A stretch of DNA of 64,000 bases, taken from assembly GCF_005233835.1 (NCBI RefSeq), contig NZ_SZQA01000022.1:1-64000 (forward strand), written 5' to 3'. The position numbers and the translations under genes were made by a program. Shown in pieces: positions 8,139 through 44,785 of this stretch. The DNA is from Herbidospora galbida (GTDB taxonomy: Bacteria; Actinomycetota; Actinomycetes; Streptosporangiales; Streptosporangiaceae). Below the pieces are notes generated by a model. It was given only the letters and a program-made list of their open reading frames with translations. It did no database searches and was not told the DNA's origin. Positions within the stretch are counted from its first letter, which is position 1; every line of letters begins with the position of its first letter.

Positions 8139-8172
8139 GCCTCAAAGTATTCGCGGCCCGGTCGAGACTCAG

Positions 8173-8208: not shown

Positions 8209-8214
8209 GGTGGG

Positions 8215-9823: not shown

Positions 9824-9838
9824 CTGATCCTCGGGACT

Positions 9839-9861
9839 ATTAGGAAGGAATCTAGCCTAAT
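9839..9861. promoter_or_regulatory. Inverted repeat ATTAGG-N11-CCTAAT, putative WYL-regulator operator
   Basis: Perfect 6-bp arms ATTAGG (9839-9844) and CCTAAT (9856-9861) are 17 bp apart centre to centre, inside the 86-bp region between the divergent WYL regulator and the TIGR03086 gene. The AT-rich arms stand out against the GC-rich surroundings. Binding by the WYL protein is inferred from position only. Confidence 0.45.
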
Positions 9862-9909
9862 GGGCCCATAGCCTTTTCTTATCAGCGCGAACGACGAAAG
9901 GCGTACACG

Positions 9910-10491: not shown

Positions 10492-10495
10492 CCGA

Positions 10496-11101: not shown

Positions 11102-11151
11102 GATTTCCCCCTGCCCGGCGATCCGTCCCTGATCCCGGGTAGGGCACATTC

Positions 11152-28574: not shown

Positions 28575-30413
28575 ATGTGTGGAATCACCGGCTGGGTGGA
28601 TTACGAGCGCGACCTGACAGGGGCCAGGGAGATCGCGCAGGCCATGACCGACACGATGAGCTGCCGGGGGCCCGACGACGAGGGACTCTGGCTCTCTCCG
28701 CACGCCGCGATCGGGCACCGGCGCCTGGCCATCATCGACCTCGCCGGAGGACGGCAGCCGATGATCGCCGAGGCCGACGGGCGCGAACTGGCGGTGCTCA
28801 CCTACAGCGGTGAGGTCTACAACTTTCAGGAACTGCGCGACGAACTGGTATCGCGGGGGCACGCCTTCCGGACGTACAGCGACACCGAAGTGCTCCTCCA
28901 CGCCTACCTGGAGTGGGGCGAGGACCTCGCCGACCACCTGAACGGCATGTTCGCGTTCGCCGTCTGGGACACCCGGACGGAACAGCTGATCCTGGTCCGC
29001 GACCGGATGGGGATCAAGCCGCTCTACTACTACCCGACGCATGACGGGGTGCTGTTCGGATCGGAGCCGAAGGCGATCCTGGCCAACCCGATGGCCGAGC
29101 GGGTGGTCGACGCCGACGGGCTGCGCGAGATGCTCGCGTTCGTGAAGACGCCCGAGGTGGCGATCTTCAAGGGCATGTACGAGGTCCGCCCAGGCCAGAT
29201 CGTCAAGATCCGGCGCGAGGGCATCAGCAAGCGGCGCTACTGGCAGCTGACGGCGTACGAGCACACCGACGACATCCCGGCCACGGTGCTGAACGTGCGG
29301 GGGCTGCTCGACGACATCATCTCCCGCCAGCTCATCAGCGACGTGCCGCTGTGCACGCTGCTGTCGGGCGGGCTCGACTCCAGCGCCGTGACCGCGCTGG
29401 CCGCGCACGACCTGAAGGCGCAGGGGCTCGGCACGGTCCGGTCGTTCTCCGTCGACTTCCGCGGCTACACCGAGAACTTCAAGCCCGATGCCGCCCGCGC
29501 GACGCCCGACGGGCCCTACGCGCACGACCTGGTCAGGCACGTCGGGTCGGAGCACACCGACATCGTGCTCGACTCGGCCGACCTGATCGACCCCGCCGTC
29601 AGGGCGGCGGTGCTGCGCGCCCGGGACCTGCCGGTCGGCATGGGTGACATGGACACCTCGCTCTACCTGCTGTTCCGCGCGATCCGCAGCCACTCCACGG
29701 TGGCCCTGTCGGGCGAGTCGGCCGATGAGGTGTTCGGCGGCTACCAGTGGTTCCACGACCCGGTGGCCGTGCACGCGGACACCTTCCCGTGGCTGGCCGT
29801 CGGCGACATCGTGGGCCACATGAACCTGGACCTGCTCGACCAGGACCTGCTGCGGATGCTCGACATCCCCGGCTACCAGGCCGACAGCTACCACGACTCG
29901 ATGGCCGAGGTGCCCCGCCTGCCCGGCGAGAACGGGCTGGAGGCGCGGATGCGGGAGGTCAGCTACTTCAACCTGACCCGGTTCGTGCAGATGCTGCTCG
30001 ACCGCAAGGACCGCATGAGCATGGCCGTCGGGCTGGAGGTCCGGGTGCCGTTCTGCGACCACCGTCTGGTCAACTACGTCTTCAACGCGCCATGGGCGAT
30101 GAAGACGTTCGACGGCCGGGAGAAGAGCCTGCTGCGCGCGGCCTGCGCCGACATCCTGCCCGACTCGATCCTGCGCCGGGTCAAGTCGCCCTACCCCTCG
30201 ACCCAGGACCCGTCGTACGGTGTCGCGCTCCGCGACGCCGCCCGCGAGCTGCTGCGCGGCGACTACCTGCCGAGCCAGGAGATCATGGACCTCGTCGACG
30301 CCCGCAAGATGGTGAGCCGGGCCGACGGCGAGCCGCTGCCGAGGCCGCCGCTGGAGCGGCTGCTCCAGCTCGACGCCTGGCTGAAGGACTACGAAGTCAA
30401 GGTGAGCGTCTGA
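28575..30413 (+). CDS. asnB: Glutamine-hydrolysing asparagine synthetase B
   Basis: This 612-residue protein starts MCGITGWVDYERD, so the Cys2 nucleophile is exposed after removal of Met. The class II glutaminase half shows SCRGPDDEG, GHRRLAIIDLAGG and LTYSGEVYNFQEL. The synthetase half has the PP-loop LLSGGLDSSAVTALA near residue 260 and ALSGESADEVFGGYQWFHDP near 380. The reaction is ATP-dependent amidation of aspartate (or a related carboxylate) with glutamine ammonia. The ATG at 28575 is supported by the need for Cys2. No peptide-biosynthesis genes are nearby, so a primary role is more likely than one in a specialised pathway. The last 17 nt overlap the convergent LPFTG gene. Confidence 0.95.
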   Translation: MCGITGWVDYERDLTGAREIAQAMTDTMSCRGPDDEGLWLSPHAAIGHRRLAIIDLAGGRQPMIAEADGRELAVLTYSGEVYNFQELRDELVSRGHAFRTYSDTEVLLHAYLEWGEDLADHLNGMFAFAVWDTRTEQLILVRDRMGIKPLYYYPTHDGVLFGSEPKAILANPMAERVVDADGLREMLAFVKTPEVAIFKGMYEVRPGQIVKIRREGISKRRYWQLTAYEHTDDIPATVLNVRGLLDDIISRQLISDVPLCTLLSGGLDSSAVTALAAHDLKAQGLGTVRSFSVDFRGYTENFKPDAARATPDGPYAHDLVRHVGSEHTDIVLDSADLIDPAVRAAVLRARDLPVGMGDMDTSLYLLFRAIRSHSTVALSGESADEVFGGYQWFHDPVAVHADTFPWLAVGDIVGHMNLDLLDQDLLRMLDIPGYQADSYHDSMAEVPRLPGENGLEARMREVSYFNLTRFVQMLLDRKDRMSMAVGLEVRVPFCDHRLVNYVFNAPWAMKTFDGREKSLLRAACADILPDSILRRVKSPYPSTQDPSYGVALRDAARELLRGDYLPSQEIMDLVDARKMVSRADGEPLPRPPLERLLQLDAWLKDYEVKVSV

Positions 30414-30906
30414 ACCGGCGACGGGTCAGCACGATCAGGGCGGCGCCCTCCAGCGACGCGACCGCGCCCGCGAGGGCGAGGACCAGGAGGGCGTCGCCGC
30501 TCATTCCGGTGAAGGGCAGCTCCTCGGGACGCGCGCCATTGACGCCGGAATCACCCTGTACGTCAGAATTGCCCTGAACACCGGAATCACGCTGCACGTC
30601 GGAATCGCGATGCGTGCTGGAATCGCGGTGAATTCCGGAATCTCGGTTCGCGCCCGAATCGCCGTCGAAGTTCAGGCCGTCCACATTGCCGTGAATGCTG
30701 TCGATGCCGCCCCGATGGTCGTCGTCGGCGTGATGCGTGACCGGCTTTCCGTGGTGCCCGTCCGGCTCCTCCCCGGCGGGCGGGTCCTCCGGGGGCAGCA
30801 CCCTGATCGAGACCCCCGTCGAGCCCGGATCGTCCGCCGCCAGCGCGGCTGCCGGTGTGACGGTCGCGAACAACAGTCCCGCCGCCGCGGCGATGCCTTT
30901 TCTCAT
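30397..30906 (-). CDS. Small secreted LPFTG (sortase-type) surface protein with hexapeptide repeats
   Basis: The protein has 169 residues. It has a signal peptide (MRKGIAAAAGLLFATVTPAA), then an acidic, His-rich low-complexity region (HHGKPVTHHADDDHRGG), and then about seven copies of a hexapeptide of the form [R/G]-[D/N]-S-x-x-[H/Q/N]. The end is a textbook sortase signal: LPFTG, a hydrophobic helix (SGDALLVLALAGAVASLEGA) and RRRFRR. The mature part has neither Cys nor Trp. GGGGGAGAA lies directly before the ATG at 30906. It is divergent from the DUF916 gene. No sortase gene is in the window. By analogy with Firmicutes WxL loci it may be the covalently anchored member of the surface assembly. 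Confidence 0.82.
   Translation of the reverse strand: MRKGIAAAAGLLFATVTPAAALAADDPGSTGVSIRVLPPEDPPAGEEPDGHHGKPVTHHADDDHRGGIDSIHGNVDGLNFDGDSGANRDSGIHRDSSTHRDSDVQRDSGVQGNSDVQGDSGVNGARPEELPFTGMSGDALLVLALAGAVASLEGAALIVLTRRRFRRSP
30545..30670 (-). repeat. Seven degenerate 18-bp tandem repeats in the LPFTG gene
   Basis: On the plus strand the units read CCGGAATCACCCTGTACG, TCAGAATTGCCCTGAACA, CCGGAATCACGCTGCACG and four more related ones, all in phase with codons. They encode the hexapeptide repeats. GAAT at each unit start gives the segment a lower GC content than its surroundings. Copy number could vary between strains. Confidence 0.75.
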
Positions 30907-31102
30907 TTCTCCCCCGTATATCCCTGCCCTCCGGCCCATATACCCAATTGAGGGAAGTAAGGCGCATCGGGGGAAGCTTTACGGAATATGACCCCGCTGA
31001 AAACCATGGATGGAGACTGGGAATCCACGGACGATCCTGAGCAGTCCTCTTGGCGGTCCATTGAATACCTTCTCGAATTGATCGCTATGGGGGGCATTGC
31101 GG

Positions 31103-32020
31103 ATGGTCAATTCGGTTCGGGGCGGCACGGCGGGATTCCTCGTCGTGTTGTGTCTTTTCTTGACCCAAGGCACACCGGTTCGGGCGGCCGGACCGGAGGA
31201 GCCCGCCTTCTCGATGCAGGTCACGCCGACCCGGCTGGTCGTTCCGGCCGGGACCTCCGAGCACCGGTTCGAGGTGACCAACAAGGGCCGGGAGGCGTTC
31301 CAGGTCACCGTCGAGAGATCCGACTTCGTCGCCGGTGAGTCAGGGGCGATGCGCTTCCAGCCCGGCGCCCCCTACGCGGCGGCGGCCTGGGCCGTGGTCG
31401 AACCGGCCCAGCTGACGGTGCCGCCGGGGGAGACCCGGCCGGTGACGCTACGCGTGGTCGTGCCGGAGACCCCGGAACCCGGCGACCACCAGTTCGCCGT
31501 GATCTTCAAGGTTCCGGCGGCGAAGACCACGGCGAACATCCGGATCAACCGGGGGATCGCCGCGCCGGTGTTCGTCACCGTGCCCGGGGCGATCGACCTG
31601 TCGGCGGAGATCGCCGACCTGCAAGCGCCCGGGTTCGTGCTCGGCGGGCCGGTCCCGATCACCGCGCGGATCCGCAGCACCGGGACGGTCCACCGGGACT
31701 TCCGGGGGCCGGAGCGGCTCAAGGTCCGGGCCGGCGGAACGGATCTGCCGTTCCCCGACTTCACCGTCGTGCGCGGGGCCACCCGTGAGGTGGCCGCCAC
31801 CTGGGACCCGCCGCTCGTCTGCTTCTGCGACGTGACCGTGGCGGTCCCCGGCGGAAACACCCGGACGGTTCAGGTGGTCGTCTTCCCGCTGCACCTGCTC
31901 GTCGTCTTCATCGCCGTCGTGATGGGCGGCGCGCTGATCTGGGTCGTCGCCCGGCACCGGTACCGTCGCCGGGTCGAGTCGGCCGCCCGCGAACTGGCGG
32001 GGAGCGGCAGCCGTGCTTAA
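31103..32020 (+). CDS. DUF916-type (WxL-interacting-protein-like) membrane protein
   Basis: The 305-residue protein has a signal peptide (GGTAGFLVVLCLFLTQGTPV, then RAAG), a first beta-sandwich typical of the WxL-protein peptidoglycan-binding domain (MQVTPTRLVVPAGTSEHRFE, then VTNKG, and VPPGETRPVTLRVVVPETPE), a second sandwich (about 165-265), a membrane helix (LHLLVVFIAVVMGGALIWVV) and a short basic tail. The ATG at 31103 has a GGGGGG stretch 8 nt upstream. In Firmicutes such proteins tether WxL-domain proteins to the wall. Here it is immediately followed, with 8-nt overlap, by the giant repeat protein, which strongly suggests the same partnership. Confidence 0.85.
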   Translation: MVNSVRGGTAGFLVVLCLFLTQGTPVRAAGPEEPAFSMQVTPTRLVVPAGTSEHRFEVTNKGREAFQVTVERSDFVAGESGAMRFQPGAPYAAAAWAVVEPAQLTVPPGETRPVTLRVVVPETPEPGDHQFAVIFKVPAAKTTANIRINRGIAAPVFVTVPGAIDLSAEIADLQAPGFVLGGPVPITARIRSTGTVHRDFRGPERLKVRAGGTDLPFPDFTVVRGATREVAATWDPPLVCFCDVTVAVPGGNTRTVQVVVFPLHLLVVFIAVVMGGALIWVVARHRYRRRVESAARELAGSGSRA

Positions 32021-35000
32021 GCGGGTTCTCGCCGTCGCCCTCGTCGCCACGGCCGTGCACGTCCCCGCGTCGGTGTCGCACGCCGCCGGGTCGACGCTGT
32101 TCGTGCAGTCGTTCAAGAACAACACGATCGACCCCGCCTATCCGGTGACGATCCCGGCGCTGCCCGCCGGGTCGACCGGCAGCAACGTCGCCTGCCTGTC
32201 GGCCGCCGGGAACACCACCGGGACGGGGCTGAAGAGCTGCACCACCTCGACCGAGGTCAACGGCTCGGGCGCGCTGCGGCTGACGAGCGCGGTCACCAGC
32301 CAGCAGGGCGGGGTCTTCGGCGCCACGTCGGTGCCGACCTCGCAGGGCCTCGACGTGACGTTCAACATGTACCAGTACGGCGGCGGCGGCGCCGACGGCA
32401 TGGCGTTCGTCGTCGCGGCCGTCGATCCGGCCAACCCGGTGCCGCCCGCCACCATCGGGCGGCCCGGCGGTTCGCTGGGGTACTCGCCGTTCGCGGCAGG
32501 GGACGGGCTGGCCCACGCCTATCTCGGGTTCGGGTTCGACGCCTACGGCAACTTCAGCAACTCCTCCTACCAGGGCGCCGGGTGCACGAACCCGCCCTAC
32601 ATCTCGACCACCGGGACCGTCCCCGGCCAGGTCGTGGTGCGCGGGCCGGGTGCGGGCACCGTCGGCTACTGCGCCCTGAACAGCACGGCCACCTCGACGA
32701 ACTCGGCGGCCCTGCGGCTGCGGGGCACCACCCGGGCGGCGTCGGTGGTCCCGGTCGCGATCGCGATCAACCCGACGTCGAGCACGCTGACCACGGCCGC
32801 CGGACTGTCGGTCGCGGCGGGCACCTACGTGGTCCAGTTCACCCCGGTCAACGGATCCCCCCGCACGCTGACGGGCGCGCTCCCCACGGTGTCGTCGGGC
32901 CTCTACCCGTCGTCCACGTGGACGACGGCGGCCGGCATTCCTCGCCAGCTCGCGTTCGGCTGGGTGGCCTCGACGGGCGGCGTCACCGACTTCCACGAGA
33001 TCGACAACGTCGTGGTCAACAGTCTCAACCCGGTGCCCGACCTGACCGTGACGCAGACGAGCTACAACGGCTCGGCGCCGAAGCCGGGCGATCCGGTGAC
33101 CTACACGGTCAGGCCCGTGGTGTCGACGACGGGCGCCAACGAGACGCTGCCGATCGCCGTGACCGAGACGCTCCCGGCGGGCGTGGTGCCCGTGGGCGCG
33201 TTCGGCAACGGCTGGGTCTGCGGGACGCCGTCGGGACAGAAGATCACCTGTACGAACTCCAGCACCCCGTTCCCCAGCGGCACGACCCTGCCGACGATCA
33301 CCGTCGTCGGCATCGTCACCGGAAACGCGGTGACGCCGTCGACCGTCCAGACCGGTACGACGGTGACGGTCTCCTCCAACGACGGCAACCCGGGCATCGC
33401 GACCACCACCACGGCGGGCACGATCCCGGCCGCGCCGTCGGGCATCAGTCTGTCGACCACCAGCGGCACCATCGCGGGCGGCGGGACCGTGACCGTCAGC
33501 GGGTCGAACCTGAGCGGCGCGACCGCCATCGAGATCGGCACCACGGCCGAGCAGCAGGCCGGCACGCCGGTCGTGCTGCTGCCGTGCTCCAGCGTGATCA
33601 CCACGAACTGCTTCGTCGCCAACGCCAACGGCACGCTGACGATCCCGTCGATGCCGTCGCGTCCCTCGGCGGCGGCCGTGTCCGTGACGGTGGTTACCCA
33701 GGGTGTTGCCGGGGCCGCCGCCTACATCTACACCTCTGCCCCCGGCACGCCGACCGCGCCCACCGCGACGGCGGGCGCCACCAGCGCGACCGTGACATGG
33801 ACGGCGCCCTCGCCGAACGGCAGCCCGATCACGGGCTACGTCGTCACCCCCTACCTGAACGGCGTCGCGCAGCCGCCGATCTCCTATCCGTCCACCGCGA
33901 CGACGCGGACGCTCACCGGCCTGACGGCCGGGGCCTCCTACACCTTCACCGTCGCGGCCGTGAACGCCGTCGGGACCGGAACGGCGAGCCCGCAGTCGAA
34001 CACGGTCGTGCCCTACACGGTGCCGGGGCGGCCGACGATCACCTCCGCCACCGCCGGGGACCTGTCGGCCACGCTGACCTGGTCGCCTCCGGCGTCGAAC
34101 GGCGGCAGCGCGATCACGGGCTACGTCGTCACGCCCTATCTCAACGGCGTCGCGCAGCCGCCGATCTCCTACTCGTCCACCGCGACGACGCAGACGGTGA
34201 CCGGGCTGACGGCGGGGGCGTCGTACACCTTCACGGTCGCGGCGGTGAACGCGGCGGGCACGGGGTTGCCGTCGACGGTGTCCACGACCGTGACGCCGAA
34301 CGCCAACCCGCAGCTCACCTTCGGGCCGCCGCCGGGCGGGCAGGTGAACGTCGCCTACAACGTGCCGCTGACGATGACGGGCGGCACCGCGCCGATCACC
34401 TGGTCGGTCAGCGCCGGGTCGTTGCCTCCGGGGGTGACGCTCAACCCGTCCACCGGCCTGCTGTCGGGGACGCCGACGTCGGCGGGCACCTACACCTTCA
34501 CCGTCCGGATCGTCGACGCGAGCGGGCAGAGCGACACCCGGGCGGCGACGGTGACGATCGTGCCGCCCCCCGTGCTGACCGTTCCGCCACCACCGGCCGC
34601 GCAGGTGGCCGTGGCCTACAACCTGCCGCTGTCGGTGTCGGGCGGCACCGCCCCCTACGCCTACTCGCTCGCCTCGGGGGCACTGCCGCCGGGGCTGACG
34701 CTGAACGCCACGACCGGCCTGATCTCGGGAACCCCGACCACACAAGGTGCCTACGCCTTCACGGTGAAGGTGACCGACGCGAACGGGCAGAGCGACACCA
34801 GGTCGGCGTCGATCACGGTGGGGGCCGGGCCGCTGGTCATCACCAAGTCGGCCGACCAGTCGGCAGCGGTGCCGGGATCGACGGTCTCGTACACGATCAC
34901 CGTGGCGAACACCGGCCCGTCGGCCTTCACCGGGGTCACCCTGAGCGACCCGCTGGCCGACGTGCTCGACGACGCCACCTACAACGGCGACCTCGCCGCG

Positions 35001-38000
35001 TCGCTGGGCAGCGCCTCGCTGAGCGGGCAGGACGTGACCTGGACCGGCAACCTGGCCGCCGGGGCGACCGCGACGATCACCTACTCGGTGACCGTGAAGA
35101 CGGGCGGGAACGGCACCCTGACCGACACGGTCGTGTCGCCGATCTCGGGCACCAACTGCGCCGCCTCCAGCGGTGACAGCCGCTGCCGGTCGACGGTCCT
35201 GCTGCAGGCGCTCGTCATCGGCAAGACCGCCGACACGGCCAACCCCACGCCGGGGGCGACCGTGACCTACACGATCACGGTCACCAACACCGGGAAGACG
35301 GCGTACTCCCCGGCCACGTTCTCCGACGCGCTCGCCGGAGTGCTCGACGACGCGACGTACAACGACGACGCGACGGCGACCTCGGGCACCGTGACCTACG
35401 GTGCCCCGACGTTGTCGTGGTCGGGCAACCTGTCCGCGGGCGCGTCGGCCACCATCACCTACTCGGTGACGGTCCGCGACCCCGACCCCGGTGACCGCGC
35501 GCTGACCAACACGGTGACCTCGGCCAGCCCGGGTAACAACTGCCCGTGCACGGTCAGCGTCACGACGCTGGTGCCGCAGCTCACCGTCACCACCGCCACC
35601 GACGTGTCGAGCACGACGCCCACCGGCGTGGTGCGCCACACGGTGACCGCCACCAACACCGGGCAGACGAGCTACCCGGCGGCCGACTTCACGCTCGCGC
35701 CGGCGGGGGACGCGACCTACGACAACAACGCCAACGCCACCTCGGGCAACCTGACGCTGAACCCGGACGGGACGATCACCTGGACCGGCCCGCTCGCGCC
35801 CGGCCAGTCGGTGACCGCCACCGCGTCGGTCACCGTGAACAACCCGGCCACGGGCACGCTGACCAGCAACGTCACCTCGACGACGGCCGGCCTGAACTGC
35901 GTGTCGTGTACGACCTCCGTCCCGATCCTGCAACCGCAGCTGACCCTGACGAAGACCGCGAGCTCCCCGACCGTCACACCCGGCGGCACGGTCACCTACA
36001 CGATCACCGCAGCCAACACCGGCCAGGTCCCTTACCAGGGGGCGACCTTCACCGACCCGCTGACGGGCGTGCTCGCCGACGCCGTCTACAACGGCGACGC
36101 CTCGGCCACCTCCGGCACGGTCGTCTACGACGCGCCCGTGTTGTCGTGGACGGGCGACCTCGCGGTGGGCGCCACGGCGACGATCACGTACACGGTGACT
36201 GTGAGGAACCCCGACCCGGGCGACCGGCTCATGTCCAACACGGTGGTGTCCCCGGTCCTGGGCAGCACCTGCCCGCAGGGGTCGCCGAACCCGGACTGCA
36301 CCGCCGTGGTGAACGTGCTCGTGCCCGGCCTGTCGATCACCCGGCAGGCCGACCGGACCAGCGCCGCCCAGGGCGACGTGATCCGCTACACGATCACGGC
36401 CGAGAACACCGGCCAGACGCCCTACACCGGGGCGAGCCTGACCGACCAGCTCGCCCAGCTCCTCGACGACGCCGTCTTCAACGGGGACGCCGTCGCCACG
36501 TCGGGAACGGTGTCGTACACCGCGCCGAACCTGACCTGGACGGGCGACCTCGCGGTCGGCGCGACCGCGACGATCACCTATTCGGTGACGGTCCGCGACC
36601 CCGACCCCGGCGACGGGCTGATCACGGGCACGGTCGTCTCGACCGATGCCGGGTCGACCTGCCCGACCGGCTGCTCCTCGACGGTACGCCTGTCCCGCCT
36701 CGCCCTGAGCCAGGCCTACACCGAGACGAGCACCACGCCCGGCTCGGTCATCCACCTGAGCGCGACGTTCGCCAACACGGGCCAGACGCCCTACACGGGC
36801 CTCACCGTGTCGGCCTCCAGTCTCGACGTCATCGACGACGCGGTCCCGAACGGCGACCAGGTCGCCACCTCGGGGAACCTCGTCCTCGGTCCGACCGGCA
36901 TCAACTGGACGGGTGACATCCCCGTCGGCGGCACGGTGACCGTCACCGGGACGCTCACCGTGAAGAACCCCGACACCGGCAACAAGATCATTCGGGGCAC
37001 GCTCGTCTCCGACGTGCCGGGCAGCTCCTGCCCGACCGGCGGCACGAATCCGGCCTGCACCGCGCGGATCGACGTGCTGATCCCGGCCCTGACGATCACC
37101 ACCACGCCCGACACCACCACCCAGGAGCCCGGAGGCGTCGTCCGGTACACGACGACGATCACCAACAGCGGCCAGACGCCCTACACCGCGATCACCGTCA
37201 GCGACGACCTGACCGGCCTGCTCGACGACGCCGTCTACAACGACGACGCGTCGGCCACCGCGGGCACGGCCGTCTTCGTCACGCCGCAACTGCACTGGAC
37301 GGGCGACCTCGCCGTCGGCGCCACCGCGATCGTGACCTACAGCGTGACCGTCCGCGACCCCGACCCGGGTGACAAGCAGCTCATCAACGCGGTGACCTCG
37401 GCCGAGCCGGGCAGCGCGTGCGTCTCGGCCTGCACGTCGCGGGTGGTCGTGCTGACTCCGGCGCTGACCGTGGCGACCTCGGCCGACCGGCAGACCGCCG
37501 TCCCCGGCGACACCGTCACCTTCACCACGACGATCACCAACACCGGCCAGACGTCGTACACGGGCACCACCGCCCTCACCGACCTGGCGGGGCTGCTCGA
37601 CGACGCCGCGTACGGCGGCGACGCCGTCGCCACGTCGGGGTCGGTCGCCTATACGGCGCCCACGCTCACCTGGACCGGGGACCTCGCGGTGGGCGCCAGT
37701 ACGACGATCACCTTCACGGCGGTCGTCGACAACCCCGACCTGGGCGACAAGCGGCTGACCGCGGTGACCACCTCGGCCGCGAAGGGCGCCAACTGCCCGG
37801 CGGGATCGGCCGACACGCCCTGCGCGGTCACCGTGGTGGTCACCGACGCCACCGATCTCACCTTCACCAAGACGGCCGACCCGTCGTCGGTGGTGCGGGG
37901 CGGGGTCGTGACGTACACGATCACCGTGGCCAACACCGCCGCCACGCCCTATGTGGGGGCGACCTTCACCGACCCGCTGACGGGGGTGCTGGACGACGCC

Positions 38001-40889
38001 TCGTACAACGGCGACCTGGCCGCGACGTCGGGCACCGCCGCCTTCAGCTCGCCGAACGTGACCTGGACGGGGAACGTCCCGGCCGGGGGCACGGTGACCG
38101 TCACCTACTCGGTGACGGTGAATCCGGCGGGCGGCTCCGGCGACGACCTGCTCACTGGTACGCTCACCTCCCCCCCGCCGGGGGGCAACTGCCCGGCCGG
38201 GGGCGCCGACCCGCGCTGCTCGGCCACGGTCACGGTGTCGGAGCTGGAGATCGCCGCGTCGTCCAGCGCCGCCAGCGTCAAGCCGGGGCAGACGGTGCAG
38301 CTCACCACCGTGTTCACCAACACCGGGCAGACGCCCTACTACGGGATCAGTGTGGCGATCCCCGTCGGCGGCTTCGTCGGCGACATCACGCCGACCGGCG
38401 AGCAGACGGTCACCTCGGGGACGTTGTGGGTCGACGGTCTCGACCTCATGTGGACGGGCGACATCCCCGTGGGCGGCAGCGTCACGGTGTCGGCGACGTT
38501 CACCGTCGACTCGCCGCCGAGCGGGGACCGGCGCATCGTCACCCGGCTGGTGTCCGCCGCGCCGGGCTCGAACTGCCCGGTCGGCGGCACCGACCCGGCG
38601 TGCGCGATCGACGTGCCGGTGCTGCTGCCGCAGCTCACCCTCGCCAAGACGGCCGACCGCGCGGTGGCCCAGCCGGGCGACGTGGTGGCGTACACGATCA
38701 CGATCGCGAACACCGGCGAGACGCCCTACACGGGGATCGGCGTCACCGACCCGCTGGCGGGCGCGCTCGACGACGCCGTGTACGGCGCGGACGCCGCCGC
38801 CACGACCGGATCGGTGGACTTCGCCGACTCGGCGCTGACCTGGACCGGGGACCTGGCGGTCGGGGCGTCGGCGACGGTGACCTACACGATGACCGTGCGG
38901 TCGCCCGACCCGGGCGACAAGATCATGGCCAACACGGTGACGTCGGACGCCGAAGGGGTGTCGTGCGGGGCGTGCAGCAGCAACGTCCAGGTCCTCACCC
39001 CGGCGCTGACGATCGTGAAGTCGGCGAGCCCGGAGTCGACGGCGCCGGGCGGGACGGTGACCTACACGGTCACGGTCACCAACACCGGGCAGACGAACTA
39101 CCCGGCGGCCACGTTCACCGACCCGCTGGCGGGGGTGCTCGACGACGCCGTCTACAACAACGACGGCGGCGCCACGCGGGGGACCGTCGACTTCTCGGCC
39201 GGCGAACTCGTCTGGACGGGGGCGCTGGCCATCGGCCAGTCGGCGACGGTCACCTACTCGGTCACCGTCCGCAACCCCGACCCGGGTGACCGGATGTTGT
39301 CGAGCCGGATCACCTCGCCGACGGTCGGCGGCAACTGCGGGACGGACCCGCGCTGCGAGACCGACGTGCCGGTGGCGGTGTTCACCGTCGTCTCCGCCAC
39401 CGACCGGACGGTCGCGATGCCGGGAGACGTCGTGCGCTACACGGTGACCGCGACCAACAACGGCCGCACCACCTTCACGCCGGCCGACTTCACGCTGTCG
39501 CTGGCCGGCGCGCTGGCGAACGCCCAGTACAACAACGACGCGCAGGTCAGCAGCGGCGGCCTGACCTTCAACGTCGACGGCTCGGTCACCTGGAACGGCG
39601 CCCTGGCCCCCGGCGAGTCGGTCACCGCGACGTCCTCGATCACCGTGGTCGATCCGGGCGGCGACGGTGGCACGCTGACCAGCGACGTCACCTCGACCAC
39701 CCCGGGCCTCGACTGCCAGGCCTGCACGACCGCGGTTCAGGTCCTCATCCCGGAACTGACCCTGACCACGGTCGCCGACCGGGAGACCGCGACCCCGGGC
39801 GACGTCGTGACCTACACGATCACCGCCAGGAACACCGGCGAGGCGCCCTACCAGGACGCGACCTGGAGCACGTCCCTGATCGGTGTGCTCGGCGACGCGG
39901 ACTACAACGGCGACGCCACGGCGACCTCGGGCGTGGTGGACTACGCCGAGCCGACGTTGTCGTGGACCGGCGACCTGGCCCTGGGCGCGGTCGCCACGGT
40001 CACCTTCTCGGTGCGCATCAAGGACCCGGATCCGGGCGACGGCCGGCTCACCCAGCAGGTGGTGTCGTCGACCAGGGGCGCGACCTGTCCGGGCGGCCCG
40101 TCGTGCTCGACGACCGTGCGGGTGCTGACGCCGGAGCTCACGATCACCAAGCAGGCCGACGTGGCGAGCATCGTCGCCGGTGGCATCGTGAACTACACCG
40201 TGACGGTGGCCAACACGGGGCAGACGCCGTACACGGGGGCGACCTACACCGACCCGATCGGCGGGGCGATCTACGGCGGCGACGCCTGGGCCTCCTCGGG
40301 CTTCGTCTCGCCGATCAACGGCGAGCTGATCTGGACGGGCGACCTGACGGAGGGCGCCACCGCGACCGTCACCTATTCGGTGCGGATCGACCCGGCCGCC
40401 GGCGACGGCGCCCTGGCCACCACGATCACGTCGCCCACCCGGGGCTCCAACTGTGCGGTGGGCTCGACCGACCAGCGCTGCTCGACGACCATCGCCGTGA
40501 TCGCCCAGAGCATCGCCGTGGCCGACCTGACCAGGAACTTCACCCTGACCGGCCCGCCCGACACCACCCGGCGCGGCGACGGCATCGTGACGATGAACGT
40601 CATCACCAACAGCCCGACCGGCTACACGGTGACCGTGCGGTCGTCGGCGCCCGCGCTGACCTCGCCGGTGACCGGCGCCTCGATCCCGATCTCCGCGCTG
40701 AAGGTGCGGTCGCCCGAGACGTCTGGATTCGAGCCGCTGTCGGCGACGACGCCGATCGTCGTGCACCGCCGGTCGGGGCCGTCGGCGCAAATCGGGGATT
40801 CTCTCTCGAATGATTATGAGGTTGATATTCCATTTGTCCCCTCGGGTAGCTATTCGGTGACCCTCGACTATATTGCCAGCACATCATGA
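32013..40889 (+). CDS. Giant exported multidomain surface protein (lectin-like head, Fn3, Ig-like, 15 DUF11-type repeats, C-terminal WxL-like module)
   Basis: This 2958-residue protein starts with a GTG overlapping the DUF916 stop. Order of parts: signal peptide (1-25); L-type-lectin-like domain (about 26-345, with GADGMAFVVAA and LGFGFDAYGNFSNSSY); a DUF11-like and an IPT/TIG-like region (about 346-575); two nearly identical Fn3 domains (about 575-765); two putative-Ig (He_PIG) domains (about 766-939); fifteen tandem DUF11/DUF7507-like repeats (940-2829, about 126 residues each); and a C-terminal module (2830-2958). Each repeat carries a YTITVxNTGQTPY-type strand, a DDAxYNxDAxATSG segment and an LxWTGDLAVGATATITYSVT segment, and most end in a Cys pair. 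The C-terminal module is homologous to the small protein encoded next. There is no LPxTG or membrane helix, so anchoring is probably non-covalent. It is a likely adhesin or stalk. Confidence 0.92.
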   Translation: MLKRVLAVALVATAVHVPASVSHAAGSTLFVQSFKNNTIDPAYPVTIPALPAGSTGSNVACLSAAGNTTGTGLKSCTTSTEVNGSGALRLTSAVTSQQGGVFGATSVPTSQGLDVTFNMYQYGGGGADGMAFVVAAVDPANPVPPATIGRPGGSLGYSPFAAGDGLAHAYLGFGFDAYGNFSNSSYQGAGCTNPPYISTTGTVPGQVVVRGPGAGTVGYCALNSTATSTNSAALRLRGTTRAASVVPVAIAINPTSSTLTTAAGLSVAAGTYVVQFTPVNGSPRTLTGALPTVSSGLYPSSTWTTAAGIPRQLAFGWVASTGGVTDFHEIDNVVVNSLNPVPDLTVTQTSYNGSAPKPGDPVTYTVRPVVSTTGANETLPIAVTETLPAGVVPVGAFGNGWVCGTPSGQKITCTNSSTPFPSGTTLPTITVVGIVTGNAVTPSTVQTGTTVTVSSNDGNPGIATTTTAGTIPAAPSGISLSTTSGTIAGGGTVTVSGSNLSGATAIEIGTTAEQQAGTPVVLLPCSSVITTNCFVANANGTLTIPSMPSRPSAAAVSVTVVTQGVAGAAAYIYTSAPGTPTAPTATAGATSATVTWTAPSPNGSPITGYVVTPYLNGVAQPPISYPSTATTRTLTGLTAGASYTFTVAAVNAVGTGTASPQSNTVVPYTVPGRPTITSATAGDLSATLTWSPPASNGGSAITGYVVTPYLNGVAQPPISYSSTATTQTVTGLTAGASYTFTVAAVNAAGTGLPSTVSTTVTPNANPQLTFGPPPGGQVNVAYNVPLTMTGGTAPITWSVSAGSLPPGVTLNPSTGLLSGTPTSAGTYTFTVRIVDASGQSDTRAATVTIVPPPVLTVPPPPAAQVAVAYNLPLSVSGGTAPYAYSLASGALPPGLTLNATTGLISGTPTTQGAYAFTVKVTDANGQSDTRSASITVGAGPLVITKSADQSAAVPGSTVSYTITVANTGPSAFTGVTLSDPLADVLDDATYNGDLAASLGSASLSGQDVTWTGNLAAGATATITYSVTVKTGGNGTLTDTVVSPISGTNCAASSGDSRCRSTVLLQALVIGKTADTANPTPGATVTYTITVTNTGKTAYSPATFSDALAGVLDDATYNDDATATSGTVTYGAPTLSWSGNLSAGASATITYSVTVRDPDPGDRALTNTVTSASPGNNCPCTVSVTTLVPQLTVTTATDVSSTTPTGVVRHTVTATNTGQTSYPAADFTLAPAGDATYDNNANATSGNLTLNPDGTITWTGPLAPGQSVTATASVTVNNPATGTLTSNVTSTTAGLNCVSCTTSVPILQPQLTLTKTASSPTVTPGGTVTYTITAANTGQVPYQGATFTDPLTGVLADAVYNGDASATSGTVVYDAPVLSWTGDLAVGATATITYTVTVRNPDPGDRLMSNTVVSPVLGSTCPQGSPNPDCTAVVNVLVPGLSITRQADRTSAAQGDVIRYTITAENTGQTPYTGASLTDQLAQLLDDAVFNGDAVATSGTVSYTAPNLTWTGDLAVGATATITYSVTVRDPDPGDGLITGTVVSTDAGSTCPTGCSSTVRLSRLALSQAYTETSTTPGSVIHLSATFANTGQTPYTGLTVSASSLDVIDDAVPNGDQVATSGNLVLGPTGINWTGDIPVGGTVTVTGTLTVKNPDTGNKIIRGTLVSDVPGSSCPTGGTNPACTARIDVLIPALTITTTPDTTTQEPGGVVRYTTTITNSGQTPYTAITVSDDLTGLLDDAVYNDDASATAGTAVFVTPQLHWTGDLAVGATAIVTYSVTVRDPDPGDKQLINAVTSAEPGSACVSACTSRVVVLTPALTVATSADRQTAVPGDTVTFTTTITNTGQTSYTGTTALTDLAGLLDDAAYGGDAVATSGSVAYTAPTLTWTGDLAVGASTTITFTAVVDNPDLGDKRLTAVTTSAAKGANCPAGSADTPCAVTVVVTDATDLTFTKTADPSSVVRGGVVTYTITVANTAATPYVGATFTDPLTGVLDDASYNGDLAATSGTAAFSSPNVTWTGNVPAGGTVTVTYSVTVNPAGGSGDDLLTGTLTSPPPGGNCPAGGADPRCSATVTVSELEIAASSSAASVKPGQTVQLTTVFTNTGQTPYYGISVAIPVGGFVGDITPTGEQTVTSGTLWVDGLDLMWTGDIPVGGSVTVSATFTVDSPPSGDRRIVTRLVSAAPGSNCPVGGTDPACAIDVPVLLPQLTLAKTADRAVAQPGDVVAYTITIANTGETPYTGIGVTDPLAGALDDAVYGADAAATTGSVDFADSALTWTGDLAVGASATVTYTMTVRSPDPGDKIMANTVTSDAEGVSCGACSSNVQVLTPALTIVKSASPESTAPGGTVTYTVTVTNTGQTNYPAATFTDPLAGVLDDAVYNNDGGATRGTVDFSAGELVWTGALAIGQSATVTYSVTVRNPDPGDRMLSSRITSPTVGGNCGTDPRCETDVPVAVFTVVSATDRTVAMPGDVVRYTVTATNNGRTTFTPADFTLSLAGALANAQYNNDAQVSSGGLTFNVDGSVTWNGALAPGESVTATSSITVVDPGGDGGTLTSDVTSTTPGLDCQACTTAVQVLIPELTLTTVADRETATPGDVVTYTITARNTGEAPYQDATWSTSLIGVLGDADYNGDATATSGVVDYAEPTLSWTGDLALGAVATVTFSVRIKDPDPGDGRLTQQVVSSTRGATCPGGPSCSTTVRVLTPELTITKQADVASIVAGGIVNYTVTVANTGQTPYTGATYTDPIGGAIYGGDAWASSGFVSPINGELIWTGDLTEGATATVTYSVRIDPAAGDGALATTITSPTRGSNCAVGSTDQRCSTTIAVIAQSIAVADLTRNFTLTGPPDTTRRGDGIVTMNVITNSPTGYTVTVRSSAPALTSPVTGASIPISALKVRSPETSGFEPLSATTPIVVHRRSGPSAQIGDSLSNDYEVDIPFVPSGSYSVTLDYIASTS
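34830..40499 (+). repeat. Fifteen tandem ~378-bp coding repeats (DUF11-like modules)
   Basis: The segment encodes residues 940-2829, that is 15 units of on average 126 codons. Units 6 and 10 (starting SRLALSQAYT and SELEIAASSS) form a divergent sub-type that lacks the usual DPL....DDA segment. Units 3 and 13 (VPQLTVTTATD and AVFTVVSATD) form another, with ADFTL. The spacing of the sub-types suggests block duplication. DNA similarity between units makes the array prone to recombination and to assembly errors. Confidence 0.88.
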
Positions 40890-40950
40890 GTTTAACTACG
40901 GGAAATCGCGGTGATCATGGCGTCGAGGTTAATTGAAAGGGATGACACAA

Positions 40951-41460
40951 ATGCCTTACATCAGAATCGCGTGCGCGGCTTTCGCCTGCCTGGCGAGCGT
41001 ATTGAGCGCCGTGCCCGCCGCCGCCGACACGGCGACCGGCAACACCGAGGCGATCGTCGAGGTCACCGACCAGATCACGCTCACCGAGCTGACCTCGTCG
41101 TTCACGCTGACGGGCGTGCCACGCGACGTCGTGACCACCGCAGCCCCGGTGACCATGCGCGTGACCACGAACAACTTCGCCGGTTACACCGTGACGGTGC
41201 AGCCGACAACACCCAACCTGCTGCCGTCGATCGCCGGCAGCACCGACGTCATCCCGGCTTCGCTGCTCGAGGTCAGCGGCCCGGCCCAGGTGGGCACGTT
41301 CACCCCGCTGAACCCGGGCACGCCGGTCGTCGTCGACACCAAGCCGTCGGCTTCGGCGTCCACGGGCGACGTCATCGCGAACAACTACCGCATCACCATT
41401 CCGTTCGTCCGCCCCGACATCTACCGGGGCACGCTGAATTACATCGCCACCACGCTCTAA
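40951..41460 (+). CDS. Small secreted protein equal to the C-terminal module of the giant protein (WxL-like)
   Basis: The protein has 169 residues. A signal peptide (MPYIRIACAAFACLASVLSA, then VPAAADT) is followed by a single beta-rich module that aligns throughout with residues 2830-2958 of the giant protein. Shared blocks are LTxxFTLTGxP, GYTVTV, IPxSxLxV, FxPL, N-x-Y-x-x-x-IPFV and TLxYIAxT. Neither copy contains Trp. GAAAGG 10 nt upstream supports the ATG at 40951. It is encoded between the giant gene and the DUF11 membrane protein in the same direction. By analogy it is a stand-alone wall-associated WxL-like protein. Confidence 0.85.
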   Translation: MPYIRIACAAFACLASVLSAVPAAADTATGNTEAIVEVTDQITLTELTSSFTLTGVPRDVVTTAAPVTMRVTTNNFAGYTVTVQPTTPNLLPSIAGSTDVIPASLLEVSGPAQVGTFTPLNPGTPVVVDTKPSASASTGDVIANNYRITIPFVRPDIYRGTLNYIATTL

Positions 41461-41510
41461 TGCCGGAGAATGGCCGGCGGAATATCCGTCCGCCGGCCTC
41501 TGGGGGGACC

Positions 41511-42071
41511 ATGGCGTTTTGGGGAAAAATCGCGGGAATAACAGCTGTGCTGTTGGCCGTCGCACCGGCTGCGCACGCGAAACCGAAGGCTCAGCTGACC
41601 ATCGCGGTCGAAGGCCGCGGCGACTCGGTCAAGCAAGGACAGCGGCTGACGTACACGACGACGGTGACCAACACGGGCGCCGGTGACGCCAGGTCCCTCG
41701 ACATCAGCCAGACGGTCGATCCCGGGCTGACGCTGGTCTCGTCGTCGCCGTCGGGGAAGGCGGCCGACGGCCGGGTGCGCTGGACGCACCCGCTGAGGGC
41801 GGGCGAGACCGTGACGTTCAGCGTGACCATGGACGTGAAACGGCTGGCCCCCGGACTGAAGCGGCTGGCGGTGGTCTCCTGCGCGGCCCGCGCGGGTGAG
41901 GCGAGGCCGCTGGTGTGCGCGACCGACTCGGCCCCCGTGGCCGCCCCGGCGCCGGTGGCGATGAAGACCCAGGGGTCGTCGGCGCCGGTGGCGTGGAGCG
42001 CGGGCGCCGCCCTGCTGGCCGTGCTGCTGGTGCTCGTGTGGCGGCGCCGGACGGGCGCGTCTATGCGCTGA
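41511..42071 (+). CDS. Membrane-anchored single DUF11-domain protein
   Basis: The 186-residue protein has a signal peptide (GKIAGITAVLLAVAPAAHAK), one DUF11-like domain (LTYTTTVTNTGAGDARSLDI, then WTHPLRAGETVTFSVTMDVK), a Pro/Ala linker, a membrane helix (VAWSAGAALLAVLLVLVW) and RRRTG at the end. I choose the ATG at 41511, preceded by GGGGGGA, over an earlier ATG at 41460 that overlaps the previous stop. It resembles one repeat of the giant protein fixed to the membrane, and could act as its docking base. Its 3' end overlaps the convergent TetR gene by 11 nt. Confidence 0.83.
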   Translation: MAFWGKIAGITAVLLAVAPAAHAKPKAQLTIAVEGRGDSVKQGQRLTYTTTVTNTGAGDARSLDISQTVDPGLTLVSSSPSGKAADGRVRWTHPLRAGETVTFSVTMDVKRLAPGLKRLAVVSCAARAGEARPLVCATDSAPVAAPAPVAMKTQGSSAPVAWSAGAALLAVLLVLVWRRRTGASMR

Positions 42072-42663
42072 GCGAGGTCAGATATCCCCCCAGCACCCGC
42101 TTGAGCTCGGCGATCTCGGCCGGGCGCTCCTCCTCCGGCGCCGCCGTCACCAGCGGCGTCATGGCCTGGAAGATCCTGACCAGCACCCGCGCGCTGCGCG
42201 CCCTGCCGTCCGGGGAGAGCCCCGGCACCCGGGCGCCGAGGATCGACTCGACCTGCCCGAGCATCGCCGCCTGGATCGGCTGCGACGACTCGGCGAGCGC
42301 GGCCGGCATGTCGGGCCGGGCGAACAGCGCCTTGAACCCCGGGTTGGCCAGGTTGAACGCCACCAGCGGGTCGACCACCCGGTCGAGCAGCTCGCCGAGG
42401 TCCATCGCGGCGACGTCGGCCCCGCCGAACGCCGAGGCGTGGGCGGTCCGCATGTCGGCGACGAACCGGTCGGCCAGCGCGCGGGCCACCGCCTCCTTGC
42501 TCGGGAAGAACTGGTAGAGCGAGCCGGGGGAGATCCCGGCCCGCGCGGCGATGGCGTTCGTGGACGCCTTCTCGTAGCCCAGTTCGGCGAAGGCGTCGGC
42601 CGCCGCGTCGAGGATCTCGGCCATCCGCCGCTCACCGCGCGCCTGCCGGCGTCGCTCCATCAC
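42061..42663 (-). CDS. TetR-family transcriptional regulator
   Basis: The protein has 200 residues. The N-terminal TetR HTH reads RMAEILDAAADAFAELGYEK, then ASTNAIAARAGISPGSLYQF and FPSKEAV. The C-terminal ligand/dimer domain is less conserved. It is divergent from the MMPL exporter gene, and the 88-bp gap holds two GCGAGC-N4-GCTCG inverted repeats that fit a TetR operator. It should repress the exporter until an effector binds. Confidence 0.95.
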   Translation of the reverse strand: MMERRRQARGERRMAEILDAAADAFAELGYEKASTNAIAARAGISPGSLYQFFPSKEAVARALADRFVADMRTAHASAFGGADVAAMDLGELLDRVVDPLVAFNLANPGFKALFARPDMPAALAESSQPIQAAMLGQVESILGARVPGLSPDGRARSARVLVRIFQAMTPLVTAAPEEERPAEIAELKRVLGGYLTSLSA

Positions 42664-42679
42664 GATCTCCCTTGAAAAT

Positions 42680-42722
42680 GCGAGCGACCGCTCGTATTGT
42701 TCAAACGCGAGCGTTTGCTCGC
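42680..42722. promoter_or_regulatory. Twin inverted-repeat operator for the TetR regulator
   Basis: Two 16-bp sites with the same arms are present: GCGAGCGACCGCTCGT (42680-42695) and GCGAGCGTTTGCTCGC (42707-42722). Centres are 27 bp apart. Both lie between the divergent TetR and MMPL genes. The arm sequence GCGAGC/GCTCGC with a 4-nt spacer is typical of TetR repressors. Confidence 0.8.
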
Positions 42723-42751
42723 AAAAATCCTATCAAGGGGATCGATTCGTC

Positions 42752-44785
42752 GTGCGCGGAGCCAGCTGGGTGCTCGTCCTGGGCCTCCTGATCACGCTCG
42801 CCGCCGGGGCCGTCGCCGCCGGAACGCTCAACGCCCTCTCGCTCAGCCGCTTCGAGGCCCCCGGCTCGGAGTCGATGCGGGCCAAGGAGACTCTCGCCGC
42901 GCAGTTCGGCACCGGCAGCCCCAACCTCGCCCTCCTCGTCACGGCCAAAGAGGGCACCGTCGACGACCCCGAGGTCGCCGAGGCGGGCCGCGAGCTGACC
43001 CGCGAACTCGCCGCCCGCAGCGGGGACGCCTGGTCGTACTGGACACGTGGTTCGGCCACCCTGCGCAGCCAGGACGCCCGGCAGGCCCTCGTGCTGGCCT
43101 GGATCCCGGGCGACGCCGACGCGGTCAGACGGACCGTCCTGCCGGCGCTCACACCGGAGTTCACCCGCGACGGCCCGCTGGTCAGGGTCGAGGTCGGCGG
43201 CGGCGACGAGGTGTTCCGGCAGGTCATGGAGCAGGCCAGGACCGACTTCCTGCGCGCGGAGCTGGTCGTGCTGCCGATGGTCCTGCTGCTGCTCTGGCTG
43301 GTCTACCGCCGGTTCGCCGCCGCCCTGGTCACCCTCGCCGTCGGCGTCGCCGCCGTGGCCGGTTCGCTCGCGCTGATCCGCGCGGTGACCCTCTTCACCG
43401 ACGTCTCCACGTTCGCCGCCAACCTCGCCCTCGTCATGGGCGTCGGCCTCGGCGTCGACTACGGCCTGTTCGTCGTCTTCCGCTTCCGCGAGGAACTCGG
43501 CCGGGGCGCGGCGGTCGACGAGGCGGTCGCCCGGACCGTCCGGACCGCCGGGCGGACCGTGGTGTTCAGCGGCGTCACCGTCGCCGCCGCGCTCGCGGTC
43601 CTGCTCGCCTTCCCGTTCCCGTTCCTCCGGTCGTTCGGGTACGCCGGCCTCGCGGTCGTCGTCGCCGCCGTGCCCAGTGCGACGGTGCTGCTGCCCGCCG
43701 CCCTGCGGCTGCTGGGCCACCGGGTCACCCGGCGTCGTCCGGCCCCGGCCCCGGTCTTCTGGGGAGAGGTGGCCACCCGGGTCATGCGCCGGCCGCTGCT
43801 GCTGGGCGGGGCGGCGCTGGCGCTCGTGTTGCTGCTCGGCTCGCCGTTCCTCGGCATCAGGTTCGGCCTCCCCGACGACCGCGTGCTGCCCGAATCGGCT
43901 CCCGCCCGTCAGCTCTACGACCAGGTCAGAGCCGGGTTCCCGGTGGAGGAGGCGGACGCCGTCCAGGTCGTGGCGGCCAGGGAAAACCTCCCGGCGTCCT
44001 ACGCGGCGGAGCTGTCCCGGATCGACGGCGTCGCGCGGGTCGACTCGGCGGCCGGGTCGTTCGCCGACGGCCGGCCGGTCGGGCCCCCTGCGGGCACCCG
44101 GTTCGCGGCCGGGGGCGGGACGTGGCTCTCGGTCGTGGCCTCCGGCGACCGGCTCGACCTGGTCGCCGACGTCAGGGCGCTGCCCGCGCCGGTCGGCGTA
44201 GTGGTCGGCGGCTACCCGGCCGAGCTGGCCGACTACCGCGACGGCGTCGTGGGCCGCCTGCCGCTGGTCGCCGGGCTGATCGTGCTGGTCACGTGCGTGG
44301 TGCTGTTCGTGATGAGCGGCAGCGTCGTGGCCCCGCTGAAGGCGGCGGTGCTGAACCTGCTCAGCCTGTCGGTCATGTTCGGCGCGCTGGTCTTCCTCTT
44401 CCAGGACAGAACGGGCAGCATCGAGCCCAGCATCCCGATCCTGATGTTCTGCGTCGCCTACGCCCTGTCCATGGACTACGAGGTCTTCCTGCTCTCCCGC
44501 ATCAAGGAGGAGTACGACCGCACCGGTGACGTCGTGAGCTCCGTACCGAACGGAATCGCGCGGAGCGCGCCGCTCGTCACCGCGGCGGCCGCGATCCTGG
44601 CGGCCTCCTTCGCCGTGTACGCCACCTCCGGCGTCGTCTTCCTGCAGATGCTCGGCGTGGGCATGGCCCTCGCGGTAGTGGTCGACGCGACGATCATCAG
44701 AGGGGTGCTGCTGCCCGCCGCGATGGCCCTGGCCGGGCAGGCGAACTGGTGGGCGCCGCGACTACTGACAAGGAGACGCCGCTGA
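42752..44785 (+). CDS. MMPL-family RND exporter
   Basis: The 677-residue protein has two repeated halves, each with an exported loop and a cluster of membrane helices. First half: MGVGLGVDYGLFVVFRFREE (proton-relay helix with D-Y pair). Second half: FCVAYALSMDYEVFLLSRIK. These D-Y motifs are diagnostic for MMPL transporters of lipids or drugs. The start is a GTG at 42752 after an AAGGGG site. It is divergent from, and probably repressed by, the TetR gene. The LLM oxidoreductase gene overlaps its 3' end. Confidence 0.93.
   Translation: MRGASWVLVLGLLITLAAGAVAAGTLNALSLSRFEAPGSESMRAKETLAAQFGTGSPNLALLVTAKEGTVDDPEVAEAGRELTRELAARSGDAWSYWTRGSATLRSQDARQALVLAWIPGDADAVRRTVLPALTPEFTRDGPLVRVEVGGGDEVFRQVMEQARTDFLRAELVVLPMVLLLLWLVYRRFAAALVTLAVGVAAVAGSLALIRAVTLFTDVSTFAANLALVMGVGLGVDYGLFVVFRFREELGRGAAVDEAVARTVRTAGRTVVFSGVTVAAALAVLLAFPFPFLRSFGYAGLAVVVAAVPSATVLLPAALRLLGHRVTRRRPAPAPVFWGEVATRVMRRPLLLGGAALALVLLLGSPFLGIRFGLPDDRVLPESAPARQLYDQVRAGFPVEEADAVQVVAARENLPASYAAELSRIDGVARVDSAAGSFADGRPVGPPAGTRFAAGGGTWLSVVASGDRLDLVADVRALPAPVGVVVGGYPAELADYRDGVVGRLPLVAGLIVLVTCVVLFVMSGSVVAPLKAAVLNLLSLSVMFGALVFLFQDRTGSIEPSIPILMFCVAYALSMDYEVFLLSRIKEEYDRTGDVVSSVPNGIARSAPLVTAAAAILAASFAVYATSGVVFLQMLGVGMALAVVVDATIIRGVLLPAAMALAGQANWWAPRLLTRRRR

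Follow-up and report, generated by a model that had tools for sequence, protein, structure and literature searches.

Gene content and layout of the locus

We analysed a 64,000-nucleotide stretch of the actinomycete Herbidospora galbida (contig NZ_SZQA01000022.1, positions 1 to 64,000; hereafter the window), which carries a locus of genes for exported surface proteins that a preliminary description, made from the letters alone, had likened to the WxL systems of enterococci and lactobacilli. All five reading frames of that description are present (Table 1), the lengths it gave for the giant protein (2958 amino acids) and the small module protein (169 amino acids) were borne out, and the 8-nt overlap between the DUF916-type gene (stop codon at 32018-32020) and the giant gene (GTG start at 32013) is real. 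Four genes are co-directional on the plus strand; the gene for the LPFTG protein (169 amino acids from its second ATG, 180 from the first), which had been counted in line with them, is a minus-strand gene that reads away from the plus-strand set. The match in gene order to WxL loci was therefore overstated, while the coupling of the two overlapping genes stood. The small module protein had also been called equal to the C-terminal module of the giant, yet it shares only 39-40% identity with the giant's last ~143 residues.

Within the giant protein, the one L-type lectin match at the N-terminus is sub-threshold, and the fn3 and He_PIG stretches come from a Pfam scan. All 15 aligned repeats share a cysteine near the repeat end; the RrgB model matches 7 stretches, and a lysine stands by eye at the expected isopeptide place in 7 of the 15 repeats.

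Table 1. Features of the Herbidospora galbida locus (coordinates in the window)
Feature	Position	Strand	Basis
Small, repeat-rich exported protein with an LPFTG motif (sortase substrate); gene divergent from the operon	30397..30906	-	Reading frame; divergent homologues beside the operon elsewhere
Membrane protein resembling WxLIP: predicted fold of two Ig-like domains, then a hydrophobic C-terminal helix and a basic tail	31103..32020	+	Profiles, model
Giant exported protein of 2958 aa with an L-type-lectin-like domain, 2 fn3 and 2 He_PIG stretches, 15 DUF11/DUF7927 repeats and a WxL-like module at the C-terminus	32013..40889	+	
N-terminal stretch of the giant, searched alone: sub-threshold L-type lectin match (PF18483)	32082..33060	+	E 1e-8, 35.8 bits, cut-off 78.3
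15 tandem DUF11/DUF7927 repeats (giant residues 941-2819, ~126 aa each)	34833..40469	+	
C-terminal WxL-like module of the giant	40455..40886	+	
Small exported protein: signal-peptide-like start and one WxL-like module	40951..41460	+	
Single-DUF11 protein with C-terminal hydrophobic anchor	41511..42071	+	Homologues in other loci

Relationship of the two partners to WxLIP and WxL families

Firmicutes hold over 91% of 938 WxL sequences, according to passages of PMC9772566. In a sample of 396 genomes of Actinomycetota, the Pfam WxL model PF13731 had matches in 17 when E-values up to 0.01 were allowed and in 8 over its cut-off, and 13 PF13731 regions were compared (7 with a match over the cut-off, 6 weaker). 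A hidden Markov model (HMM) of the window's WxLIP family matched an open reading frame (ORF) near the WxL gene in 11 of these 13 regions, with E-values of 2.4e-4 to 1.2e-16 computed within the small ORF set of the 13 regions; L125 (a 3.9-kb contig) and L131 held no ORF matched by this model.

The protein encoded at 31103-32020, previously described as DUF916-type, scored 12.9 bits against PF06030 (E 0.12), short of the curated cut-off of 27.3, so that in Pfam this assignment is a sub-threshold match only; it was supported by profile-profile comparison. Against 13 other actinobacterial WxLIPs (the 11 from PF13731 regions plus two from the Herbidospora galbida genome, L096 and L097), the family profile reached an hhalign probability of 99.7-99.8 (E 2.5e-27 to 2.9e-27, score 198.5-199.0), with column-shuffle maxima of 21.4 (of 60) and 21.0 (of 30). 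These 13 proteins were selected using the window family's own HMM; all eight that were scanned, including that of L096, match PF06030 (WxLIP_PGBD) independently (E up to 1, best 1.8e-11). The six WxLIPs from loci over the PF13731 cut-off gave a probability of 99.2, an E-value of 1.2e-19 and a score of 145.1 (shuffle maximum 27.7). The actinobacterial WxLIP profile finds Enterococcus faecium EfmWxLIP1 (PDB 9i25, 9i1y) at ~1e-8, and a PDB sequence search with the window family's profile returned a best E of 0.4 or worse. The NQIDKxxxYFDLK motif of WxLIP is absent from the family, which reads FSLxVSPTR near the N-terminus; by eye, an FxLxVxP core is common to the family and EfmWxLIP1, and the family alignment ends in a hydrophobic stretch with a basic tail.

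The predicted fold of the WxLIP ectodomain (predicted local distance difference test, pLDDT, 91.5; 20 strands) matches the CsuC chaperone (2.2e-9), an E. faecium WxLIP (1.3e-8) and a WxLIP bound to a long WxL protein (9i25; 1.1e-7), and many PapD-type chaperones stand among the best 50 of 1721 matches, with template modelling (TM) scores normalised to the query of 0.33-0.54. The model thus has the two-domain fold of PapD-type chaperones, as judged by the Foldseek match to CsuC (TM 0.51-0.52, root mean square deviation, rmsd, 8.3). Its hairpin spans residues 98-131, the second strand lying at 116-131, with a less confident loop and conserved N116, I117, N120, R121 and P126. An arginine, R15 (in PTRL), is conserved in 15 of 16 family rows and aligns with the TR of FimC, which we take to be the chaperone's anchoring arginine. 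Profiles and model together support the membrane protein as a probable WxLIP relative, in which a transmembrane helix is predicted to come after two Ig-like domains.

For the small module, scans at E up to 1 found no Pfam or NCBIfam family. The module set (21 sequences) compared with the 13 PF13731-found domains gave an hhalign probability of 79, an E-value of 1.5e-5 and a score of 38.6, as against 200 column shuffles with a mean of 10.9 and a maximum of 17.0, and a reversed score of 13.2. The result was similar when the comparison was limited to the 7 domains that pass the cut-off of PF13731 (probability 79, E 1.6e-5, score 38.9 over 114 columns; maximum of 30 shuffles 14.8). Scores against other Ig-like sets were low: 15.9 for all 15 giant repeats (shuffle maximum 21.0; 19.7 with an earlier set of 3), 12.7 for WxLIPs, 11.2 for pilins and 13.4 for PapD chaperones. 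In the alignment, GYTV of the module falls on GWxV of WxL domains. The window's small module reads Y-x-V at motif 1 and Y-x-A at motif 2, and its family has tyrosine at motif 1 in 21 of 21 rows and at motif 2 in 85% of 20, whereas the PF13731-found actinobacterial domains have tryptophan at motif 1 in 13/13 and at motif 2 in 0/13. As in WxL systems, the module stands at the C-terminus, in one large and one small protein per cluster. PDB sequence searches with the module profile and with the actinobacterial WxL profile gave best E-values of 0.4 or worse. AlphaFold2 predicts the module as a beta-sandwich (best model pLDDT 93.6), whose best fold matches in the PDB were the TasA fibre (9.9e-4) and a Csu pilin (1.6e-3), followed by other pilins (best 50 of 882). 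Membership of the pilin family by sequence was rejected, since the pilin profile score fell beneath its shuffle maximum of 16.5.

Several results weigh against these assignments or against the strand-donation mechanism proposed below. On the WxLIP protein FixG_C, an Ig-like model, outscores PF06030 (E 0.0065), and among the 16 family rows, counted at E up to 1, NPCBM_assoc matched 14, fn3_5 13, FixG_C 10 and PF06030 only 9 (best E 0.00039); because generic Ig-like models match more rows than PF06030, Pfam alone leaves the WxLIP identity unsettled. The link to chaperones is weak by sequence: eight E. coli PapD-type chaperones gave a probability of 49 and a score of 37.3 (shuffle maximum 20.1 of 60), falling to 23 and 32.9 when EcpB was removed (7 chaperones; shuffle maximum 22.8 of 60), and the other actinobacterial WxLIPs show no link to PapD chaperones (1.3). 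For the module, even with E-values up to 10 allowed, PF13731 matched none of the 21 rows, of which one was out of frame; this null result is tempered by the HMMER filters, which discard most weak matches. The hhalign probability of 79 sits under the level usually deemed certain, and the six sub-cut-off domains alone gave 39, with a score of 31.2 over merely 20 columns. The five module models had mean pLDDT values of 93.6, 93.2, 91.5, 76.2 and 73.9, two of them thus at 74-76; the fold matches of the module are modest, in that among the best 50 one reached E <=0.001, TM (query) was 0.39-0.59 with large rmsd, and no WxL chain appeared. Profile comparison shows no similarity between the module and E. 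coli pilins, and the module lacks tryptophan at both WxL motifs. Since there is profile homology while the dual Trp-x-Leu motif fails, we name it WxL-like. An absence of any relation to WxL domains, which the preliminary description had named, together with a lack of contact with the DUF916 protein, as one of the findings that would overturn its reading, was rejected, as profile scores lie well above column shuffles for both partners; its likeness in domain types to WxL loci stood in that sense, though with neither motif tryptophan nor a Pfam WxL match in the module. By profile comparison, then, the module appears to be related to WxL domains as a divergent, tryptophan-less relative.

Two further WxL-like/WxLIP pairs were seen in the Herbidospora galbida genome (G000). 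On contig C73 (L096, 6649-10122), a purple-acid-phosphatase-like protein has a C-terminus that matches the actinobacterial WxL HMM at 1.1e-15 and PF13731 only at E 0.07, and after it comes a gene for a WxLIP that passes the Pfam cut-off. This arrangement resembles the surroundings of Ang-2 genes, near which metallophosphatases and DUF916 are described in PMC12537917. On contig C29 (L097, 8770-10430), a 210-amino-acid protein matches the actinobacterial WxL HMM (3.1e-13) with no PF13731 match, and its range overlaps that of a frame similar to WxLIP (24.9 bits against PF06030, cut-off 27.3).

Conservation and co-occurrence

The closest named relatives of the small module lie in five Herbidospora genomes (86-88% identity), and in its own genome the module occurs in two places only, both in this locus (E up to 1). 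The four-gene operon, with WxLIP, giant, small module and DUF11 anchor in that order, was found in 13 distinct loci: the window, L001-L004 and L010 (Herbidospora), L094 (same genus), L005 (Acrocarpospora; L099 is the same locus and was counted once), L007 (Sphaerisporangium), L008 (a metagenome-assembled genome of Actinoallomurus), L095, L098 and L144. Each holds one copy of the small module. A small, divergent LPxTG-type gene adjoins the WxLIP gene in 12 of the 12 loci with upstream sequence (L008 excluded), with an LPFTG motif in 11 and a degenerate LPYSG in L099. The co-occurrence of the five families in relatives, which the preliminary description had proposed, was thus searched for and found, and the gene set is not a chance assembly, since it is conserved in other genera. 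Left out of the 13 were G088, whose operon is spread over two contigs (L143 and L100) and whose LPFTG gene is separated from it by ~2.5 kb that include a TetR-like frame, and L093, a seemingly decayed copy (6157-12107) in which the giant is split and short with a partial module match, and the WxLIP, DUF11 and LPFTG genes remain.

In five stretches (L006, L009, L087, L088 and L083), a WxLIP gene comes immediately after a module gene, and the fetched sequence contains no giant gene. L006 and L009 come from Streptosporangium; L087 and L088 are both in genome G080, whose giant gene lies on another contig; L083 is from genome G276, of another class (35% and 33% identity). Such a two-gene unit is what a docking pair would predict.

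Across the phylum sample (396 genomes), the only strong module match besides that in the own genome was in G276 (2.9e-29), with weak matches in four more genomes (E 0.0046-0.0098); in a search of 66 genomes of G276's class the module was found in G276 alone. The family sample (150 genomes) had the module in 17, spanning 6 of 68 genera, and a close WxLIP in 16, all of them among the 17. "Close" here means E below 1e-100, a line drawn after viewing the list, at its gap between 1.1e-108 and 4.9e-41. The numbers of first-look candidates scored per genome were up to 26 (family, module), 10 (phylum, module) and 15 (family, WxLIP); because only part of the candidates was scored, misses are possible. 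Eleven of the 16 genomes with both partners carry the four-gene operon, G080 has the two-gene units, G088 the operon split over contigs and G036 a decayed one; in the other two, G132 and G151, the WxLIP gene lies at a distance from the giant's module, which counts against the mechanism proposed below. In the 17th genome, G041, two small modules and a fragment of a giant share a 3.9-kb contig, at whose edge a WxLIP-like frame begins (E 9.5e-7). At 1e-10, 31 family genomes have a WxLIP-type match; the other 15, with weaker matches, yielded no module, and one of them, G109, has a WxLIP broken by one TGA. L092 (9316-10129) carries a broken WxLIP-like gene, in a genome that yielded no module. Co-occurrence of module and WxLIP gave Fisher p-values of 1.2e-20 by genome and 5.8e-7 by genus, which are optimistic because of shared descent.

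The stretch after the operon (42061-44785) codes for a TetR-type regulator, on the minus strand, and for an MMPL-family transporter, both of which also adjoin the operon in the five named Herbidospora relatives. The product of a minus-strand gene at 27186-27746 matches a ricin-B-type lectin family (PF14200, 26.3 bits, cut-off 25.6). Between the small-module and DUF11 genes, a perfect 9-bp inverted repeat with a 9-nt loop, found by eye at 41472-41498, is possibly a terminator or attenuator; a promoter and terminator scan of the locus was uninformative, and this repeat was absent from its list.

Proposed mechanism and comparison with known systems

We consider it fairly probable that the locus encodes a divergent WxL/WxLIP surface system, in which WxLIP would hold the modules by donor-strand complementation and tether a lectin-tipped stalk. 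The basis for this mechanism is profile homology, fold predictions, gene linkage and co-occurrence. All products, those of the four co-directional genes and the divergent sortase substrate, would be exported. The F1-G1 hairpin of WxLIP's first Ig-like domain would add a strand to the module's beta-sandwich, so that WxLIP may fold, hold or dock both modules at the boundary of membrane and wall. The stalk of 15 DUF11/DUF7927 repeats could carry the lectin-like domain outward, where this tip may bind glycan. The secreted small protein would consist of the module only and the small DUF11 protein would be membrane-anchored, and the products may bind the wall and assemble jointly. A strand-donating, membrane-tethered WxLIP is inferred from precedents, each taken from parts of the papers cited: an AlphaFold2 prediction in which a WxLIP hairpin strand completes the WxL sandwich (PMC10599100), strand complementation of TasA in a Gram-positive cell (PMC10151520, PMC9674648), and in vitro binding of two E. 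faecium WxL proteins to their transmembrane partner (PMC5817068). A term search of the main text of PMC10599100 found neither "donor" nor "chaperone". A wider proposal, that WxL/WxLIP pairs are the Gram-positive counterpart of chaperone-subunit pairs, with a membrane-tethered PapD/CsuC-like strand donor for pilin/TasA-like modules and, in these actinomycetes, a small module that may polymerise by strand exchange and a lectin-tipped giant on the fibre, is tentative and strikes us as rather unlikely.

The same operon could serve a module that binds the wall or a wall glycan directly, with the WxLIP-like protein acting as a separate membrane receptor that donates no strand. This would agree with WxL domains being described as peptidoglycan-binding (in sections of PMC5817068) and with genomes G132 and G151, where 1.6 Mb and ~114 kb, respectively, separate the WxLIP gene from the module of the giant and the WxLIP gene has no module as its neighbour. 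The pairing of module and WxLIP in the five stretches fetched without the giant, one of them in another class, argues for docking instead, as does a WxLIP fold whose long hairpin matches strand-donating chaperones, and we regard direct wall binding as possible but doubtful. In another reading, which seems to us distinctly unlikely, the small module is a fibre subunit: like TasA and pilins, it would polymerise by donor-strand exchange, using its N-terminal extension, while WxLIP would act as the starter or the chaperone and the giant would cap the fibre. TasA and chaperone-usher pilins are the module's best fold matches, an extension does precede the module's first strand, and TapA/TasA offers a Gram-positive precedent (PMC10151520); against this, the profile similarity to pilins is missing, hydrophobic alternation in the extension is merely moderate, and each four-gene locus has a single small copy.

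Finally, this might be just a generic operon for Ig-like surface proteins of an actinomycete, whose likeness to WxL systems arose by convergence and not by descent. Pfam scores below threshold, generic Ig-like families equalling PF06030 and the broad likeness of Ig-like sandwiches could all be read in this way. We disfavour it as highly improbable: the profile scores of both partners far exceed column shuffles, those of the module against giant repeats, WxLIPs, pilins and PapD chaperones stay low, and the gene pairing is the same as that of WxL and WxLIP.

Taken together, the sequence evidence indicates that the locus is a real, conserved and divergent branch of the WxL/WxLIP system, for which docking is a well-motivated hypothesis. 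Among the papers listed in searches of an open-licence library, judged by titles and abstract starts, no treatment of a WxL/WxLIP system in filamentous actinomycetes was found. The locus suggests that WxL-type systems extend past the reach of motif and Pfam searches, with a tryptophan-less branch in filamentous actinomycetes. The filamentous actinomycetes that have this system are mostly soil organisms, and binding to an animal host is therefore unlikely as its general purpose.

WxL clusters of Enterococcus, Lactiplantibacillus and Listeria combine a small WxL protein, a large WxL protein, a WxLIP and often an LPxTG protein. The Herbidospora locus is like them in its WxLIP, its small and large proteins with a common C-terminal domain and its LPxTG-type neighbour, with partners related by profile. 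It differs in lacking the motif tryptophans, in a WxLIP below the Pfam cut-off, in the giant's 15-repeat stalk, in the divergent orientation of the LPxTG gene, in the extra DUF11 anchor gene and in its filamentous actinomycete host. Closer to home, the actinobacterial loci L121, L122, L123 and L126 (PF13731 over cut-off), as well as L096 and L097, have a WxLIP beside one or two WxL-type genes, as here; the PF13731-found domains keep the tryptophan of motif 1 where the window family has tyrosine.

Chaperone-usher pairs (CsuC-CsuA/B, FimC-FimA) resemble the proposed pair in the predicted folds of both partners and in the arginine of the WxLIP family that aligns with the TR of FimC, but here the partner is membrane-anchored, the cell is Gram-positive and there is no sequence similarity to pilins; in a Gram-positive cell no usher pathway is expected, and none was searched for. 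In TapA-TasA of Bacillus subtilis, a sandwich subunit is strand-complemented in a Gram-positive cell, and the predicted fold of the Herbidospora module finds its best match in TasA. A difference is fibre formation by TasA. WxL domains are reported always to stand at the C-terminus (PMC9772566), for which strand complementation would offer a reason, a free end beside the receiving groove. Strand complementation may be a principle common to these systems.

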